Translations under genes and position numbers: made by a program | Notes under the pieces: model-generated | The model's database searches: none | Told to the model about the DNA's origin: nothing | Seen by the model: the letters and a program-made list of their open reading frames with translations, nothing else | In this document: piece by piece, positions 39,034-52,603 of the stretch | How the letters are laid out: the number at the start of each line of letters is the position of its first letter | Numbering within the stretch: the stretch's first letter is position 1 | From: Saccharofermentans sp. | GTDB lineage: Bacteria; Bacillota; Clostridia; Saccharofermentanales; Saccharofermentanaceae | Direction of reading: 5' to 3' | DNA length: 55,403 nt | Assembly: GCA_016292145.1 (NCBI GenBank) | Contig: JAEFBA010000006.1 | Location: forward strand, 1-55,403

Positions 39034-40113
39034 ATGGCAAAGAAGATAGCAATCGCAATCTGGCTCGTTACGGCACTGCTCCTCGGAATCCTGGTGCTGA
39101 ATTACTATGGCAACAGAAACCTCATCGAGAGATACGGTTCCGGCGTATACCAGCAGAACGAATTGGGATTCTTAGGCTTCACGCAGCCTTATATCAATCA
39201 CTTCAACAGAGGCAACGTCTTCTTCCAGTTAGGTGATTATCAGAAGGCTAAGCAGGAATACCAGTCCGCATTGAACTTAAAGCCGGGTGATCCCTACGAT
39301 TGTAAGGTCAGAGTAAACTATGCTCTCTCTTACGTTAAGCCGATCGATGTAAAGAAGATCAACAAGGATAACTACAAGGATACGATAGAGATCTGCGAGA
39401 CAGCCAAGTCCATTCTTTCCGAGAAGGGCTGTGCGACCAAGAACAACGACGGTCACTACTATGCTGCCCAGAAGCTCTATAACGAGATCGACAACTTCAT
39501 TGAAGATCTCAAGAACCAGTATGAGAATCCGGATCCGTCTCCGACGCCTACGCCGACACCGACTCCGGAACCAAATGAGGATGGCAATACACCTACGCCT
39601 ACACCGACTTCCAAGCCGGACGCCGATGCAACGGAGACGCCTACACCTACGCCGACTCCTGAAGGCGGACAGTCGCCAACACCGACACCTACTCCGCGTG
39701 GCGGAACAGCTACACCTACGCCTACACCGGGCGGCGGAACCGCTACACCTACGCCTACACCGGGTGGTCCCGGATCTCCTACGCCTACACCGGGCGGAGA
39801 AGGCACACCTACGCCCACACCCACACCTGGCGGAGAAGGTACAGGAACGCCTACACCTACACCGGGCGGTGAGGGAACAGGAACACCCACACCTACACCG
39901 GGCGGAGAAGGACAGGGAACACCTACACCTACTCCGGGTGACGAGGGCGGCAACAACCCTACAAACGGCGACGGTCAGGATGATCCTAACAAGTCTCCCG
40001 AGGACAGGATCCGCGATATCCAGAACAGAGGCAACCGTGAACGTACCGGCGGTGGCGGCGGCAACCAAAACGGCAACAACGAATACAATTACGGCGACTC
40101 GGCAACCTGGTAA
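39034..40113 (+). CDS. TPR protein with Pro-Thr repeat region (BatC-like)
   Basis: 359 residues. An N-terminal membrane segment (about 5-24) is followed by a tetratricopeptide region (about 55-110, with [20 protein letters not shown]). From about residue 165 to 315 the protein is a low-complexity chain of TPTPTP blocks separated by GG-E/G-T spacers, then a Gly/Asn-rich C terminus. BatC proteins have TPRs but not this long Pro-Thr region, which resembles linkers in cell-wall or cellulosome proteins and suggests that it spans the wall outside the membrane. The Thr residues could be glycosylated; this is inference. Confidence 0.88.
39539..39945 (+). repeat. tandem Pro-Thr coding repeats
   Basis: A chain of imperfect repeats of the type ACACCTACGCCTACACCGGG with GCGGA-type spacers encodes the Pro-Thr region. 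Unit number could change by slippage between strains. Confidence 0.9.
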
Positions 40114-45323: not shown

Positions 45324-45779
45324 TTACAAATATCCCAGATGTTTCATGAAGGCATTAAGGCCTTCTGTCAGGTCATCGTAAGTCTCATCGAAATTATCCG
45401 TGTACCAGGGATCGGCTATGCTCCGGTTGCTTCCGGCAAATGTCAGGAGCTGGTAGATCTTGCCGTCCGGATCGCCGCCTGCAAGACGTGTCATGTTCGA
45501 AATGTTATAAGAATCCATGCCGATCAGGTAATCGTAATGCTCGTAGTCGGCGCGGGTCATCTGGCGCGCGCGGTGCGGAACGACGGGAATGCCGACGGAG
45601 CGCAATTTGCTCACGGTACCGTAGTGCGGTCCGTTGCCGATCTCCTCACGGCTCGTTGCCGCAGAGTCGATCTCAAAGAGGCCGGCGAGCCCCCTCTTAT
45701 TAACCATATCCTGGAACATGGACTGTGCCATTGTGGAACGGCAGATGTTGCCGTGGCATATAAACAAAACTTTTATCAT
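45324..45779 (-). CDS. low-molecular-weight protein tyrosine phosphatase
   Basis: 151 residues, the usual family length. The active-site loop is CHGNICRS (Cys-x5-Arg-Ser) at residues 8-15 and the general acid is in DPWYTDNF near the C terminus. It removes phosphate from tyrosine-phosphorylated proteins; in Firmicutes these often regulate surface polysaccharide kinases, but none is nearby. It lies just outside the integrase end of the mobile element. Confidence 0.93.
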   Translation of the reverse strand: MIKVLFICHGNICRSTMAQSMFQDMVNKRGLAGLFEIDSAATSREEIGNGPHYGTVSKLRSVGIPVVPHRARQMTRADYEHYDYLIGMDSYNISNMTRLAGGDPDGKIYQLLTFAGSNRSIADPWYTDNFDETYDDLTEGLNAFMKHLGYL

Positions 45780-45900
45780 AGTTACGATTTGCCCCGATAA
45801 TCCCCGAAAAGCCTTTGATCATTAGGTTTTTCAAGAACTCGGCCTTTCTTGTTGTTTTGGCTTATCGTGCCCTTTCTCGGCATATCTAAGCCTTGGTCTG

Positions 45901-45937
45901 TAGTAAATTTGTAGTAAAACCAAACCAATTTACTACA
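45901..45937. promoter_or_regulatory. integrase arm-type binding repeats
   Basis: GTAGTAAA at 45901-45908 and 45912-45919 and the inverse TTTACTAC at 45930-45937. Tn916 integrase binds AGTAGTAAAT-type (DR2) repeats with its N-terminal domain near the transposon ends. The same motif just outside the integrase stop marks this side as the element end. Confidence 0.6.
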
Positions 45938-45941
45938 GCGG

Positions 45942-47141
45942 TTATCCGATGGCAGTAACTCTGGCAAACTCTTCCTTCGCGTCATCATACTTAACATGTG
46001 TATAAGTATTCATCGTGACTGTGATGTCAGAATGTCCCATAATATACTGAAGCGTTTTGGGATTCATTCCGCTTCTTGCCATATTGGAACAGAATGTGTG
46101 TCTGCACACATGCGGCGTAATCTTGGGGAACCTCAAGCGATAGATCCTGTCATGCTTCTCCAGGGCAAACTTAAAGTATTTTTCCCAATGCATCGCGACC
46201 TTGGGCATTCCGTTCTTATCAACACACAGAAATCCCGTATATCCGTCAATGACCGGTTCTTTTCTCAACGCGGGTCTGCTCCCGATCATACGTTCAAAGC
46301 AGGCAGCGACTTCTTTAGTCATCGGAACCCTGCGGGTACCTGCATTTGTTTTGGTAGGAATAATGATATATTCCATGCCGCTTGTACGCTGAAGCTGATG
46401 ATCAACATTGATATACATCTCATCGAAATGTATGTCATTGTAAGTAAGACCACAGAATTCCGAGATACGAAGACCTGTATGGAACAAAACATAGAATGCA
46501 TCGTAATACCTGCAATAATGCTTATCGTTCTTCACGTAGTCCAAGAACTCATTCATCTCTCGCTTCGATATAGCGTCGCGAGTAACCTGATCATTGATAA
46601 GGACATCGGCCAGTGCGAACTGGAACGGATTCTTACGTATAAGATCATCCTGATATGCAATCTCAAAGGCAGGTCTCAGTATTCCTCTGAAAGTATGAAG
46701 AGAACTGTAACCTCTCCCATTCTTTTGCAGATCTATCAGCCAACACTTGGCATCCGTCATTTTGACTTTGTCGATCCTCAGGCTACCGAACGGGTTTTTG
46801 GACAGGAAATTGATACATGTCTTATAACCCGCTGCCGTAGAAGGTCTTATACCTGTTCTTGTCTTGACGTACTTCTTGACCAGTTCAAGAACCGTAATAT
46901 CACCGCCGTTAACAGCTACTTGGTTAAACAGATCTGCTTGAATCTGCTTTTCCTTCTCTCTTAATGATAACTCAGGTCTTTTGCCGGAAGGAGTTGCATC
47001 CGTACGATCCAGTCTCCAACTGTACACGATCCTTCTGATCCCGGTATTGTCGTAGTAAGTGTATTGATATCTACCATCCGGTCTCTGGCTCTCTCCATTG
47101 CGAAGAATGCGATTTTTCTTGTCTCGTCTTTTCTCGCTCAT
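45942..47141 (-). CDS. int: Tn916-type tyrosine integrase
   Basis: 399 residues; AAAGGAGAG precedes the ATG. The N terminus (about 1-75) is the small arm-binding domain of the Tn916 group (NGESQRPDGRYQYTYYD). A core-binding helical domain follows (about 80-175). The catalytic domain has the Arg in HTGLRISEFCGL, HVCRHTFCSNM as the His-x-x-Arg box and GHSDITVTMNTYTH with the nucleophilic Tyr. It should join and excise the element at a specific site. The excisionase gene lies just upstream, as in Tn916. Confidence 0.95.
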   Translation of the reverse strand: MSEKRRDKKNRILRNGESQRPDGRYQYTYYDNTGIRRIVYSWRLDRTDATPSGKRPELSLREKEKQIQADLFNQVAVNGGDITVLELVKKYVKTRTGIRPSTAAGYKTCINFLSKNPFGSLRIDKVKMTDAKCWLIDLQKNGRGYSSLHTFRGILRPAFEIAYQDDLIRKNPFQFALADVLINDQVTRDAISKREMNEFLDYVKNDKHYCRYYDAFYVLFHTGLRISEFCGLTYNDIHFDEMYINVDHQLQRTSGMEYIIIPTKTNAGTRRVPMTKEVAACFERMIGSRPALRKEPVIDGYTGFLCVDKNGMPKVAMHWEKYFKFALEKHDRIYRLRFPKITPHVCRHTFCSNMARSGMNPKTLQYIMGHSDITVTMNTYTHVKYDDAKEEFARVTAIG

Positions 47142-47221: not shown

Positions 47222-47449
47222 TTATACGGCTGTTGCCTGATCTATATACTGTTCAAAGTATTTACGCTTTATCATGACCCGGTTGCCGTTCATGACGACA
47301 AAATCTGCCATAGGATTTTCTTCAACTATTCGCCGTAATTTCTTTTCACCAAAATGGAAATAATCGGCAGCTTCCCTGATGGTCAGTGTGTATTTTTCCC
47401 ATAAAGGGACAACATTTGATCTATTGTTTTGATTCTGATTGTTATTCAT
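47222..47449 (-). CDS. xis: excisionase
   Basis: 75 residues from ATG 47449, with GGAGGAATC 7 bases upstream. It is a winged-helix DNA-binding protein with LTIREAADYFHFGEKKLRRIVEE for the recognition helix and NGNRVMIKRKYFEQYID for the wing and C-terminal helix. The sequence and position before int match the Tn916 Xis group. It directs the integrase to excise the element. Confidence 0.9.
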   Translation of the reverse strand: MNNNQNQNNRSNVVPLWEKYTLTIREAADYFHFGEKKLRRIVEENPMADFVVMNGNRVMIKRKYFEQYIDQATAV

Positions 47450-47462
47450 ATAGATTCCTCCA

Positions 47463-47822
47463 TTATTCCGATTTGTTATTTCTGTCCTTGACCATTTCAG
47501 GTCTGAATGTCTCGTACAACATAGAGACAGCTTCGAAGATTTCGTTTTGACATCTTTCAAGCTCAAGGCTATGTGCAATACCTAGTACATTAAGTTTTCT
47601 GAGCAGCGTGTTGATGTTGCCTCCGGCTCTTTTCATCAGGGAAATCAATTGGTAGTAATCTGCCGGCGGAGCTTCGACGATTACCTCTCCAAACATTGCT
47701 CTTCTGGCATATTCGCTTATGGAAAGTCCGGCTTTGGATGCATTCTTCCTGATGGATTCGTAATCTTCTTTGCCGACTCTGAAGTGGATCTGATAAGACT
47801 TTGCCGGGAAATTCTTATTCAT
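47463..47822 (-). CDS. MobC-like relaxosome accessory protein
   Basis: 119 residues. A ribbon-helix-helix start (YQIHFRVGKEDYESIRKNASKAG then LSISEYARRAM) is followed by the MobC core ISLMKRAGGNINTLLRKLN. MobC proteins bind oriT and help a relaxase nick it. The gene overlaps the ATPase gene by 8 bp and ends 13 bp before xis. The relaxase gene that would normally follow is absent, so the element would need a relaxase supplied by another element or may be immobile. Confidence 0.85.
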   Translation of the reverse strand: MNKNFPAKSYQIHFRVGKEDYESIRKNASKAGLSISEYARRAMFGEVIVEAPPADYYQLISLMKRAGGNINTLLRKLNVLGIAHSLELERCQNEIFEAVSMLYETFRPEMVKDRNNKSE

Positions 47823-48894
47823 CTGTACCTCCTTTGGACGTCTGATCCTTATTTAAGATCCAAAACCACACATCACCTTTCTTGTCCGATCCGAGTCCGG
47901 GAATGTACTTCTTGGCTTCATCAAGTGTCCTCTTACAGATGTTTTTGTTTTTGGCCATCTCTTGGATCTTCTTGGCTTCGACCTCTGTATGATCCGTGAA
48001 GTAAGACTTTAGGAATGTGATTGCCATATCCAGCTTGGTCTCGGTGCGGGCTTTTTGGTTCCTGGAAGCGTAAAGAATGTCATCGGGAGTTACATCGTCA
48101 TATCCGTCAACCCACTCGAAGCCGTTCGCTCCGTCCAGTCTGAATGCCTGTGAAGGTCCCTGTGGTCCGAGAGAAGACTTGTTATGAACAAAGATGCGCA
48201 ACCCGGAATCATCTTTGTGCCTGCCGACAAGAAGGATGCTTCTGGAGATGGCGGTGAAGTCCATGGAGCCGATCCCTCTGTAGATGCTGTTTAAACCCTG
48301 TGCTTTATTAAGATGGCCAATCAGTATGATCGAGCACTTATACTTTTCTGCGAGTTCTCCGACAGGTCTCAAAGTTTCTCTTACCTCATTAGCCTTGTTC
48401 ATGTCGGTACGGGATCCCATGAACGCCTGAATCGGGTCGATAATAAGGACTTTTGCACCGGACATATCAAGGGCAATCTCAATCGCTCTTTGAGATAAAG
48501 CGGTAGGTTTGTCTTCTTCCTTAAAGAAAAGAACGTTTTTGGTATCTGCCCCTAATTCCTCAAGACGGGGTTTTAGAGTATCCCTTACTCCGTCCTCTGC
48601 GGAGAGATAAATGACTTTCTGTTGTTCAAGCTCAGGTAAGCCGGGAAGGGGAGTTCCTGAAGATACACATGCTGCGATCTTAAGTGCGAGATTGGTCTTG
48701 CCATCTCCGGGATTGCCCTGGATTATTGTTATTTTCCCGTAGGGGATATACGGATACCATAACCACTCGACAGTTTCCTTCTCGACTTCAGCCATGCTCA
48801 TCAGCACAGATTCTTCTTCGTTGTATTCTTCTTCGAACTCTTCGTCTTCAAATTCGTTGTTGCTTTCATAGTTTTCGTTGTTAGTAAATTGCAT
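47815..48894 (-). CDS. RepA-like RecA-fold ATPase of mobile element
   Basis: 359 residues from ATG 48894, with GGAGGAATC upstream; longer frames to 49017 run through palindromes and are rejected. An acidic N terminus (about 1-35) precedes a RecA-fold ATPase (about 40-260) with Walker A GNPGDGKTN, Walker B KVLIIDPIQAF, ILIGHLNKA and a C-terminal winged-helix-like part (KLDMAITFLKSYF and onward). These are the features of RepA/DnaB-related plasmid helicase-type ATPases. Together with the palindromic region upstream it suggests that the element can replicate at least transiently after excision. Confidence 0.88.
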   Translation of the reverse strand: MQFTNNENYESNNEFEDEEFEEEYNEEESVLMSMAEVEKETVEWLWYPYIPYGKITIIQGNPGDGKTNLALKIAACVSSGTPLPGLPELEQQKVIYLSAEDGVRDTLKPRLEELGADTKNVLFFKEEDKPTALSQRAIEIALDMSGAKVLIIDPIQAFMGSRTDMNKANEVRETLRPVGELAEKYKCSIILIGHLNKAQGLNSIYRGIGSMDFTAISRSILLVGRHKDDSGLRIFVHNKSSLGPQGPSQAFRLDGANGFEWVDGYDDVTPDDILYASRNQKARTETKLDMAITFLKSYFTDHTEVEAKKIQEMAKNKNICKRTLDEAKKYIPGLGSDKKGDVWFWILNKDQTSKGGTDE

Positions 48895-48929: not shown

Positions 48930-49009
48930 GGAACGGGGTCTTCAGGGGACGTCCCCTGACAAGCTTTTTGCTTTTGTGTACACAAAAGCGTTGCTTGCGA
49001 AACCGTTCC
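48930..49009. promoter_or_regulatory. 80-bp multi-branched palindrome, candidate oriT or single-strand origin
   Basis: An outer stem GGAACGG/CCGTTCC (48930-48936 with 49003-49009) and an inner stem CAAGC/GCTTG (48960-48964 with 48993-48997) enclose a perfect 20-bp palindrome at 48970-48989 (half-site GCTTTTGTGT). Within the outer stem is also a perfect 18-bp palindrome at 48942-48959 (half-site TCAGGGGAC). Such nested structure next to a MobC and a replication ATPase is typical of oriT, double-strand or single-strand origins. It lies directly upstream of the ATPase and could also regulate it. Confidence 0.6.
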
Positions 49010-49043: not shown

Positions 49044-49250
49044 GTGTTCCTGTCTGAGACCTAATTTACGTGAATTGAATTGGGATTAGAATGATACTTG
49101 GAGTATCATGTTTTGCCTAAAAAACGGCTTGAATGCTAGGTCCTATGAAACCCAAAAACAGCAGAAGTCTAATATTTCAGGGCATTTGTCAGCATGATAC
49201 TTGGAGTATCATGTTTTAGCTGAATTATCATAAAAATTCACCTTTCTGTC
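49044..49250. repeat. palindrome-pair unit 1
   Basis: Head GTGTTCCTG...AATTTAC starts at 49044. Palindrome 1 (ATGATACTTGGAGTATCAT) is at 49091-49109, followed by GTTTTGCC; palindrome 2 has exactly the same sequence at 49194-49212, followed by GTTTT. A tail CACCTTTCTGTCGG (about 49240) encodes a minus-strand ribosome site before a 20-codon frame from 49231. Between 49251 and 49390 lies an extra stretch with an inverted repeat (49280-49291 with 49326-49336) and no gene. Confidence 0.75.
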
Positions 49251-49390
49251 GGACTTACCCGGCGAAGAAGATGACGATCCATAAAAGTAAAATCGGCAAC
49301 TTATTTCTGTGACCTTTGCGACTTGTTACTTTATGGTCCGATCCGTCGATCCGACAACAAGCGCGTAGTCTGTTATCTGCGTCAGAACTT

Positions 49391-49634
49391 GTGCTCCTGA
49401 CAGTTTTCAATTTACGCTGTTCCGGCAAGGTTTAGAATAGAAAAAAACTTTCTAAGTTTTGCCTGAAACTACGCATAAAATGATGAGCAAACCAGTGAGT
49501 ATTAATGGCGAAATGCATATGGTTGCTGCATTTCTGATATCAGAAAGTTTCTTTCTATATTTTTGGTTCAGTTGGAATTTTAAGTAGGACTCTGAATCAA
49601 TCTTCTGACTTGTCATAAATGTTACCTTTCTGTC
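49391..49634. repeat. palindrome-pair unit 2
   Basis: Head at 49391 (GTGCTCCTGACAG...AATTTAC). Palindrome 1 (ATAGAAAAAAACTTTCTAA) is at 49437-49455, followed by GTTTTGCC. Palindrome 2 is at 49540-49558 with core AGAAAG-TTT-CTTTCT, followed by ATTTTT. Spacings match unit 1 (46 and 103 bp). This unit has the least perfect palindromes. The tail ACCTTTCTGTCGAG is at about 49624. Confidence 0.7.
49452..49616 (-). CDS. possible 54-residue membrane peptide inside unit 2
   Basis: ATG 49616 with AAAGG 8 bases upstream in the conserved inter-unit block. The frame starts MTSQKIDSESYLKF, has a charged helix and then one convincing hydrophobic segment (about residues 30-50, ICISPLILTGLLIILCVV), and stops exactly at palindrome 1. 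Its first codons are similar to those of the frame in unit 3 (I-x-S-x-x-Y-x-K-F). It may be a genuine small membrane protein, or the region may act only as RNA/DNA. Confidence 0.4.
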   Translation of the reverse strand: MTSQKIDSESYLKFQLNQKYRKKLSDIRNAATICISPLILTGLLIILCVVSGKT

Positions 49635-49640
49635 GAGTTT

Positions 49641-49886
49641 GCGTTCCTGACAGTTCTCAATTTACAGTGTTTCTCTGCAGGTTGGAATGGAACTTTGGGT
49701 TCCATGTTTTGCCCGAAAAACGGCGAAAAATGGGTGAATTTAGAGCTTAAAAACTCCAGGAAGCTCCGAAATATATGTGTTTCGGTGCATGGAACTATAA
49801 GTTCCATGTTTTTGGAGATTTTAGGAAATTTCTTATAGTTATATGAACCAATCTCTGACTTTTTCATAAATATCACCTTTCTATCG
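49641..49886. repeat. palindrome-pair unit 3
   Basis: Head at 49641 (GCGTTCCTGACAG...AATTTACAGTGTT). Palindrome 1 (ATGGAACTTTGGGTTCCAT) is at 49687-49705, then GTTTTGCC; palindrome 2 (ATGGAACTATAAGTTCCAT) is at 49789-49807, then GTTTTT. The arms are the same but the centres differ. Spacings are 46 and 102 bp. Tail CACCTTTCTATCGGG at about 49875. A minus-strand frame from ATG 49867 (81 codons) shares its start with the unit 2 frame, but its 3' part runs through the head and is probably not all coding. Confidence 0.75.
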
Positions 49887-49891
49887 GGTTT

Positions 49892-50064
49892 GTGTTCCTG
49901 ACAGTTCTCAATTTACAGTGTTATGAATGAGATTAGAATGATAATCGGATTACCATGTTTGGGGCCTAAAACGTGCATTTCTGAGGGTTATTTTGCTGGT
50001 ATAATCCCGTAAACGCCTTATGAAATAAGGATTTCTGACCATGTTAATCGGATTACCATGTTTT
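49892..50064. repeat. palindrome-pair unit 4
   Basis: Head at 49892 (GTGTTCCTGACAG...AATTTACAGTGTT). Palindrome 1 (ATGATAATCGGATTACCAT) is at 49938-49956, then GTTTGGGGCC; palindrome 2 (ATGTTAATCGGATTACCAT) is at 50041-50059, then GTTTT. Spacings are 46 and 103 bp. No tail with a minus-strand ribosome site follows, so this is the terminal unit of the array. Confidence 0.75.
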
Positions 50065-50532: not shown

Positions 50533-50892
50533 ATGATCAAATTATCTGATGCCGAGTGGAAGATAGTAACGTGCTTATGGGACAAGGGCTCAATGACTAT
50601 TGCTGAACTTACCAAGTTCTTTAGTAATGATACGGGCTGGTGCAGAAATTCGATTATCACACTGCTTAACCGAATGGAGCAAAAAGAGGCTGTTGATTAT
50701 ACAAGAGAGAACAGGACCAGGCGTTATTTTGCCAAGATCGACAGGACCGAAGCAGAGCTTGAGGAGACCACTTCCTTTTTGAATAAGGTATATAGCGGCA
50801 ATGTCGGCCTTATGATCACCAATCTGATCAAGTCCGAGAAACTGTCAAAGGAAGAGATCGAGGAGCTGCATAAGATATTAGAGGAGAACTGA
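50533..50892 (+). CDS. BlaI/MecI-family repressor
   Basis: 119 residues; GGAGG lies 6 bases before the ATG. The N-terminal winged helix (about 1-75) has LSDAEWKIVTCLWDKG and SIITLLNRMEQKEAVDY; the C-terminal dimer helix has FLNKVYSGNVGLMITNLI, the region where BlaI and MecI are cleaved after induction. It represses its own operon until the adjacent BlaR1-like protease is activated. The membrane protease gene starts one base after its stop. Confidence 0.93.
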   Translation: MIKLSDAEWKIVTCLWDKGSMTIAELTKFFSNDTGWCRNSIITLLNRMEQKEAVDYTRENRTRRYFAKIDRTEAELEETTSFLNKVYSGNVGLMITNLIKSEKLSKEEIEELHKILEEN

Positions 50893-50893
50893 T

Positions 50894-52603
50894 ATGCTGC
50901 GCTACATTTTAGGGTTATCGCTGTTGACGGCATCTCTGATCGCTATCCGGTATATTGTTGATAAAATGATCAGCAGGAAGTTCCAGTATGCTTTATGGAT
51001 CCTGATACCGATATACATGTGTATAGCACCGTTTTTTACAATAAACATTTCGTTGCCTGCAAAAGAAGTCATTGTTCAAGAGCAAACAACTGAAACCGCA
51101 GAAATATTAAATATTGATACCACGGACGTTGTTCCTTTGCCTATACAATACACATCTTCAGGTGAAGCTGAAACAAGTATTCCTGCAAAGAAGCATATTG
51201 ATTGGACAGTCTTGTTCCGTAATACAGCATTAAGCGTATCAGGTACACTAATAATCGCATTAATCATTTATAATCTTGGTTTTATATTGTACTGTAGGCG
51301 GAAAAGACAGTTTGTAAAACGGGATTCCAACTATGGTCTTAGAATATTTAAATTGGATCATCCGAACGCACCATTCCTGTTAGGTAATTGCATTTATCTG
51401 AGTGACGAAGTTGCAGATAGTGAAATGTCTGAATATTCCATATGTCATGAATGTTGTCATTATAAGCATCTTGATCATGTTTGGATTCTGATTCGTTATA
51501 TCGTGCTGGCTTTGAACTGGTTCAATCCGCTTATATGGTATGCATTCAGATTGGTTGATGAGGATTGTGAATTAGCTTGTGATGAAGCTGTTATTTTACA
51601 GCTTGGTGAAGAAAATAGAGTTAATTACGGCAAAGTACTTTTAGAAATACTTACAAAAGAATCTAAAAGGAATTTTTATATATCAACTGCTATGAGCGGT
51701 AGGGGAGAAAGCATTATGAAAAAGAGAATAAAGAATATCAAGAATCCGGGAAAAACGAGTGTTACAGCTGTAGTAATTGCTGGAATGTTGGCTTTGTTTA
51801 TGGCTGGATGTTCACTGGTTGATGTTAATCAAGAGACTGTAGAAGTAATTGTTCCCTCAACAGAAATAGAACAAAGTGAATCTTCAGCGACAGAGCAGAT
51901 TTTAGCAGCTTTGCCACATCCTGATGATCTGTATGTTATAGGAACTTTATATAAAGATGAAGTGATGCCCACTGAAGGACATTTAGAAGATGGATTCTAT
52001 ACCGTTTCAATGACGCCGAATCGTGGAGCAAATGATGATGGATATGATTGTGTGTTTTATCCGTGGGCTCAACTTGAAGTTGATAAGCATTTCATTTATT
52101 CGCTTTATGAAGGAATGATATTGGATTTTACAGGCTGGGGAGAACTTAACACAGTAACGGTATACGATATTGTTAACCGTAGAATTGATCCATATTCATA
52201 TATGGGTACAGACTATACAGGTGAGGTAGTTATTCTGTCAACAAATAAAGGGAATATCTTATTTTGCAAAGTTGATGGCGTTGATAAATGGAAAGCTTCC
52301 ATTGATTCTATACATGAGCCGATAAGATTATTCAATAAACCGGTTAGTGTAAGTGTTGCAGATGACTGCATAATATATGATGCAATGTCTTTCATTAAAT
52401 CAATTGATTTAAACAACACGGATATATCTCAAATTGACATTCGAGACGTTACTGATTTTACCAACAAAGATATGACAAAAGGTATAACCGGCAGTATCAA
52501 CGAGTTCTTCGATAAAGGTCGTTTCCCTGAATATGAAAGATATGATCATACAATGGTAAAGATTGAAAATAATACCGTTACTGAAGTGTATTTTTGGGCT
52601 TAA
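50894..52603 (+). CDS. BlaR1/MecR1-like M56 membrane protease with unusual C-terminal domain
   Basis: 569 residues. Four membrane segments surround the M56 metalloprotease motif HECCH (within CHECCHYKHLDH), followed by NWFNPLIWYAFRLVDEDCELACDEAV, a strongly conserved family stretch. After a basic region (about 275-290) there is another hydrophobic segment (about 296-312), then an extracytoplasmic domain of about 250 residues. This does not show the penicillin-binding Ser-x-x-Lys of BlaR1 and I could not recognise it, so the inducer is probably not a beta-lactam. Its own cleavage on induction would free the BlaI-type repressor's targets. No beta-lactamase gene is adjacent. Confidence 0.87.
   Translation: MLRYILGLSLLTASLIAIRYIVDKMISRKFQYALWILIPIYMCIAPFFTINISLPAKEVIVQEQTTETAEILNIDTTDVVPLPIQYTSSGEAETSIPAKKHIDWTVLFRNTALSVSGTLIIALIIYNLGFILYCRRKRQFVKRDSNYGLRIFKLDHPNAPFLLGNCIYLSDEVADSEMSEYSICHECCHYKHLDHVWILIRYIVLALNWFNPLIWYAFRLVDEDCELACDEAVILQLGEENRVNYGKVLLEILTKESKRNFYISTAMSGRGESIMKKRIKNIKNPGKTSVTAVVIAGMLALFMAGCSLVDVNQETVEVIVPSTEIEQSESSATEQILAALPHPDDLYVIGTLYKDEVMPTEGHLEDGFYTVSMTPNRGANDDGYDCVFYPWAQLEVDKHFIYSLYEGMILDFTGWGELNTVTVYDIVNRRIDPYSYMGTDYTGEVVILSTNKGNILFCKVDGVDKWKASIDSIHEPIRLFNKPVSVSVADDCIIYDAMSFIKSIDLNNTDISQIDIRDVTDFTNKDMTKGITGSINEFFDKGRFPEYERYDHTMVKIENNTVTEVYFWA

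Follow-up and report, generated by a model that had tools for sequence, protein, structure and literature searches.

An array of four palindrome pairs from Saccharofermentans sp., occupying positions 49063 to 50063 of the window (the whole 55,403-nucleotide stretch analyzed here, from a 2.70-Mb draft genome that is 85% complete), probably constitutes an orphan set of XRE-operated promoters answering to XRE proteins supplied in trans by other mobile elements. The array lies inside an integrative mobile element, a setting that the initial annotation did not mention, and forms the control region ahead of a minus-strand operon with the gene order AAA_25-nikA-xis-int. An oriT-like block lies between the array and the operon.

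Geometry of the array

All four pairs of 19-bp palindromes proposed in the initial annotation were recovered, with start-to-start spacings of 103, 103, 102, and 103 bp in units 1 to 4. The palindromes are treated below as putative operators on the minus strand, with the first of each pair on the coordinate scale being proximal to the promoter and the second distal. In unit 1, both the proximal (49091 to 49109) and the distal (49194 to 49212) copies read ATGATACTCCAAGTATCAT. The proximal and distal copies are TAGAAAGTTTTTTTCTA (49438 to 49454) and TAGAAAGAAACTTTCTG (49541 to 49557) in unit 2, ATGGAACCCAAAGTTCCAT (49687 to 49705) and ATGGAACTTATAGTTCCAT (49789 to 49807) in unit 3, and ATGGTAATCCGATTATCAT (49938 to 49956) and ATGGTAATCCGATTAACAT (50041 to 50059) in unit 4. 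The reported matching within units was borne out at 19/19, 12/17, 16/19, and 18/19 positions in units 1 to 4, with unit 2 being the weakest, and the palindrome sequences differed from unit to unit while the geometry stayed constant.

When any pair of similar palindromes 60 to 150 bp apart was counted, the 1 kb of the array contained four pairs, whereas 482 kb of control loci yielded just one, at a spacing of 144 bp. A tighter pair scan detected none in 330 kb. Genome-wide scans were carried out as pattern searches, and across 148 related genomes the array palindromes were nearly confined to such arrays. The array occupies a single locus per genome, and a genome-wide dispersed repeat was rejected on this basis. 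A relationship to REP/IS200-type hairpins, one of the options raised initially, was not supported: the units were confined to this regulatory position at one locus, and no Y1/RAYT transposase was found among the neighboring genes.

Promoter-like organization of the units

On the minus strand, the order of parts in each unit is the distal palindrome, about 83 bp, CAAAAC (CCAAAC in unit 4), the proximal palindrome, TTCYAA, 17 variable bases, and TAAATT. A leader around CAGGAACAC (CAGGAGCAC in unit 2) follows, in most cases with a ribosome-binding site (RBS) and an ATG after it. The conserved head and the trailing GTTTT of the initial annotation take on a changed meaning: the head corresponds to the -10 region and leader of a minus-strand promoter, and GTTTT to the CAAAAC flank, which lies 5' of both sites. 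The promoter-like blocks are located at 49910 to 49938 in unit 4 (-35 TTCTAA, 49938 to 49933; -10 TAAATT, 49915 to 49910), 49659 to 49687 in unit 3 (TTCCAA and TAAATT), 49409 to 49437 in unit 2 (TTCTAA and TAAATT), and 49063 to 49091 in unit 1 (TTCTAA and TAAATT), the last being the final promoter ahead of the operon. The spacer between the two hexamers is exactly 17 bp in all units and is unconserved in sequence; a constant spacer length with free sequence is a hallmark of promoters. The units are therefore probably promoter regions on the minus strand, aimed into the operon of the element. With TAAATT as the -10 element, the center of the proximal palindrome falls at about -44 and that of the distal palindrome at about -147. 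The weak -35 block and an operator near -44 would fit an activated promoter.

On the plus strand, these blocks give TTTACA-16-TAGAAT, which matches 10/12 positions of the sigma-70 consensus, a better match than that of the minus strand, so the promoter might face the opposite way or both ways. The minus-strand reading was preferred for three reasons: the downstream genes and the RBS lie in that direction; the second and sixth bases of the minus-strand -10 hexamer are A and T, respectively, in 18/18 cases; and the plus-strand hexamers are degraded in unit 3 as well as in the unit 2 copies of two elements. Open reading frames in the leaders were considered as conserved peptides and rejected, as the unit 2 frame is shifted in genome G007 and the other frames are unrelated. 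Units 2 and 1 are separated by a spacer of about 120 bp (49242 to 49400) containing the inverted repeat CCATAAAGTAA / TTACTTTTATGG, possibly a leader attenuator. This spacer recurs after unit 4 in genome G004 (locus L017), ahead of a sigma-region-4-like gene.

Linkage to XRE regulator genes in relatives

A pattern search with the promoter plan alone led to genome G076, in which a Cro/CI-type (XRE) gene lies directly upstream of the promoter. XRE homologues were also located at the G004 array and in genome G064; identity to the G004 protein is 60% for the G076 homologue and 51% for the G064 homologue. In all three genomes the operators adjoin the XRE gene, with the distal site abutting or overlapping its stop codon and the proximal site and promoter in register. 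The counterpart in G004 of the unit 4 distal operator of the window lies 4 bp past the stop of the intact XRE gene. Operator spacing in these loci is 102 bp (G004), 91 bp (G064), and 101 bp (G076). Site match scores were 14, 15, and 11, respectively, where the chance of a score of at least 11 is 0.015 and scores of at least 13 were seen in 0 of 5000 cases. The linkage is drawn from three XRE-bearing loci, among which the G076 sites are weak palindromes and the G064 proximal site has only one half. The operator sequence varies with the XRE, being of the types ATGGTAAT, ATTGAACT, and GTTGACGT/ATTGACGA. Consistent with the original proposal that one factor recognizes both copies in a unit, a single regulator probably reads both palindromes, and the XRE-linked relatives point to a specificity that differs per unit while the geometry is kept.

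The regulator has an XRE fold (HTH_3/HTH_26 matches). Its predicted structure has a mean pLDDT of 66 with an unreliable C-terminal part, and its PDB fold matches were to general XRE folds only, none with an E value of ≤0.001, including weak matches to Stl and lambda repressor. By sequence reading, G064 carries a small element encoding the XRE, an ATPase, a RepA-like ATPase, and a tyrosine integrase. The G004 element encodes a sigma-region-4-like protein, a PemK-like toxin, Xis, and a tyrosine integrase, the last assigned by reading. Wider XRE homologues in G148 and G160 were set aside, as they lie in frames of about 640 amino acids with the XRE-like domain C-terminal and have no palindrome pair. 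Class-level XRE matches were mostly in frames of about 620 to 630 amino acids. The array-type XRE domain is likewise C-terminal in proteins of about 630 amino acids from phages and other Clostridia (L190, L191, and L204), which belong to PHROG 4031, a family of unknown function.

No XRE gene of the array-linked family was found within the window, and no member of the family was found in the rest of this draft genome or in the near-complete genome G007; given that the draft is 85% complete, the gene could be missing from it. Of the four units, only unit 4 has a candidate cognate XRE, that of G004. From the lack of an array-family XRE in both genomes, we infer that the regulators are supplied in trans.

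XRE remnants within the array

Short open reading frames follow the promoters of units 4 and 3. The first (49823 to 49867, minus strand, ATG at 49867) encodes MKKSEIGSYNYKKFP, a start joined to an XRE C terminus, and the second (49572 to 49616, minus strand, ATG at 49616) encodes MTSQKIDSESYLKFQ. Intact XREs carry LEIGSELYLKFP, YEIGAEIYMKFP, and LEIGSDLYMIFP close to their C-terminal ends. When 69,028 twelve-residue windows, drawn from the entire 55 kb in all six reading frames, were ranked against the XRE C-terminal motif, the two remnant peptides came first and second with scores of 31.7 and 24.3, and the next window scored 20.3. Both remnants are in frame and immediately ahead of the distal site. 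An RBS and ATG (49214 to 49231, minus strand, ATG at 49231) also precede the unit 1 distal operator, where only the start is present, without an XRE tail. The remnant peptides indicate that XRE-operator-promoter modules are stacked in the array, with their XRE genes cut down to a start and a tail. Both remnants are built alike, with about four residues ahead of the XRE tail, so the deletion of the XRE may be older than the divergence of the operators. In genome G041 (L015, 7364 to 7747), the reading frame of a truncated integrase runs on into the XRE-remnant frame of the array (MKSQKIGSESYLKIKLNQKYRKKLSDRTGFLYF...), and the junction falls at the unit 2 distal operator.

Variation and conservation between elements

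Further units exist in other species of the genus, and their number ranges from 1 to 4 per element. The window carries units 1, 2, 3, and 4; G007 and L141 carry units 1, 2, and 4; and G020 carries units 1 and 4. G026 has units 2 and 4 together with the head of unit 1, the unit 1 palindromes being absent. Unit 4 occurs beside the truncated integrase in G041 and with the intact XRE in G004. In G007, which lacks unit 3, the junction falls within the repeated head, where recombination between repeats would be expected to leave it. Regions upstream of AAA_25 homologues at 45 to 49% identity contained no units.

Across four elements with unit 1, in which both operators are invariant, 1 of 60 positions varied in the operator and promoter sites, compared with 17 of 74 in the interior (p = 2e-4), which argues against a purely fossil array. 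For unit 4, the promoter hexamers and spacer were invariant in seven elements, and the contrast between operator and promoter sites (7 of 60 variable) and the interior (16 of 74) was not significant (p = 0.17). The corresponding contrast for unit 2 was not significant either; too little had diverged, and the sites were as variable as the interior.

The host element and its oriT-like block

The operon downstream of the array, all on the minus strand, begins with a gene for an AAA_25 (RepA-like) ATPase (47815 to 48894), followed by genes for a NikA-like mobilization protein (47463 to 47822), a Tn916-type excisionase (Xis; 47222 to 47578), and a Tn916-type tyrosine integrase (Int; 45942 to 47141). 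Close relatives of the ATPase are found in Ruminococcaceae bacterium AB4001 and rumen genomes. The oriT-like block (48942 to 48997, minus strand) consists of TCAGGGGACGTCCCCTGA and GCTTTTGTGTACACAAAAGC with CAAGC/GCTTG. No relaxase was found in the window, and the relaxase family matches of the genome were confined to two other contigs. From its gene content, the host is predicted to be a relaxase-less integrative mobilizable element for which this block is a candidate oriT. At least five elements of the genus that do carry a relaxase (L055, L059, L060, L061, and L062) have a similar pair of inverted repeats immediately ahead of nikA. This places the probable transfer origin at 48942 to 48997 rather than in the array, and it makes these elements candidate helpers.

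Proposed mechanism

We propose that the array comprises four tandem minus-strand promoters, each with two XRE operators, one at about -44 and the other about 103 bp further upstream. Each unit would derive from a module of the order XRE gene, distal operator, proximal operator, and promoter, from which the XRE has been lost. XREs encoded by related mobile elements elsewhere in the cell and supplied in trans would bind the matching operator pair, probably cooperatively through a DNA loop of about ten helical turns; looping between the paired operators is plausible from their spacing. The bound XRE would then switch on the AAA_25-nikA-xis-int operon, and the four units would provide four specificities in an OR arrangement. 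More tentatively, and with slightly less than even probability, the element may keep a growing promoter library, each promoter copied together with its operator pair from a different partner but without the regulator. Any partner could then trigger excision, and cassettes would be gained and lost by recombination at the conserved promoter-leader repeat.

Alternative readings of the array

The several specificities at one locus without an XRE gene of their own could also mark a decoy or immunity array, a further option of the initial annotation, whose operators titrate the XREs of incoming competitors or keep the element silent in their presence. XRE-fold proteins are often repressors, and the weak structural similarity to Stl and lambda repressor fits this reading, which we consider unlikely, if the least so of the alternatives. 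Plain decoys would have no need for pairs that keep a promoter in exact register, with an RBS and ATG, toward an operon, and the weak -35 block with a proximal site near -44 looks more like the style of an activated promoter. Ranked behind the decoy reading, and also unlikely, is a relic in which modules were amassed by recombination, the XREs decayed, and unit 1 or none still functions. The reduction of the XRE genes to remnants, the free loss of units (including the unit 1 palindromes in G026), and the variability of the unit 2 sites would all be expected of such a relic. However, the conservation of the unit 1 sites relative to their interior, the invariance of the unit 4 promoter in seven elements, and the 102- to 103-bp spacing retained in every unit speak against it.

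Hairpins that act in a leader RNA, as an attenuator or as small RNAs, or that form in single-stranded DNA during transfer would account for the matching within units without a protein, and units 2 to 4 do fold on the minus strand with long palindrome-palindrome pairing (z-scores of -2.0 to -4.5 over the four units). We regard this as improbable, since XRE-bearing relatives keep the half-site, the spacing, and the promoter register but not the hairpins (the G064 proximal site and G076), the long-range fold of unit 3 leaves the palindrome centers unpaired, there is no Rfam match, and palindromic protein sites fold in any case. That the units serve as oriT sites, each for the relaxosome of a different helper, is very improbable. 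The head does contain TCCTG, which we take to be reminiscent of MOBP nic sites, and the window lacks a relaxase; staphylococcal plasmids are known to mimic several oriT subtypes (PMC8136818). Such mimic sites would be expected next to helper relaxase or accessory genes, but neither the head nor the palindrome pair occurred at any of the relaxase loci examined, and the separate oriT-like block outside the array, common to the relaxase/NikA elements, counts against the array as a multicopy oriT. Origin iterons, another of the initial options, are disfavored by palindromes that differ between units and by the placement of the units as promoter modules ahead of a transfer operon.

Relation to known systems

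Hitchhiking elements are known to listen to the master regulator of one helper. If the proposed orphan promoter array is correct, the element would widen its helper range purely by means of DNA sites, and the types of unit present could predict the mobilizing elements. The closest functional parallel is provided by the helper-switched islands of the SGI1/MGI type, which lack a relaxase and are switched on by the helper activators AcaCD or SetCD (PMC4207636, PMC5704250). As in those islands, a nonautonomous integrated element has an excision operon expected to be under a helper regulator in trans; they differ in responding to one helper activator of another protein family, whereas here there are four tandem operator types and the trans supply is proposed from genome content. 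The oriT mimics of the staphylococcal pWBG749 family likewise belong to nonautonomous elements that copy short sites of divergent helpers (PMC8136818). In those plasmids transfer origins are copied, while here the oriT-like block stands apart and the copied parts would be promoter-operator modules. Lambda CI, SaPI Stl (PMC6695447), and the C proteins of restriction-modification systems share the XRE-fold regulator and palindromic sites by a promoter. However, SaPIs keep Stl and respond via protein contacts, whereas the array has no regulator gene and places its specificity in DNA sites about 103 bp apart.

The initial annotation knew of no described element with the plan of the array. In agreement with this, Rfam and plasmid and phage collections gave no relevant match to the units, scans of IMG/VR yielded nothing relevant, a single further hit lay inside a coding sequence, and a limited search of the open-access literature returned no description of tandem promoter modules with differing operators that lack their regulators. 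The parts themselves, namely XRE regulators, paired operators, and helper-dependent elements, are all of known kinds. With differing XRE operators set in one fixed promoter frame, the array would also be a useful natural series for the study of XRE-DNA recognition. Even if the units are inert, it documents clearly how regulation in a mobile element was replaced step by step.

Surroundings of the element

The elements of the window and of G007 and the remnant in G041 all adjoin a conserved sequence at the 5' end of the same low-molecular-weight phosphatase gene, a probable integration site (45324 to 45942 in the window; L013, 3278 to 3930; L015, around 7100). To the right of the array, gene content varies between species. 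By reading only, a BlaI/BlaR1-like pair is present in the window (50533 to 52603), HNH-like and DNA-methylase-like genes in G007, a peptidase-like gene in G026, and a gene for a macrodomain-like protein in G041 (L202, L014, and L015 8384 to 9406 being the loci compared with the window). Elsewhere in the window, several VWA/Bat-like genes in a row are followed by a gene (39034 to 40113) whose predicted product has a long repeat region rich in proline and threonine.
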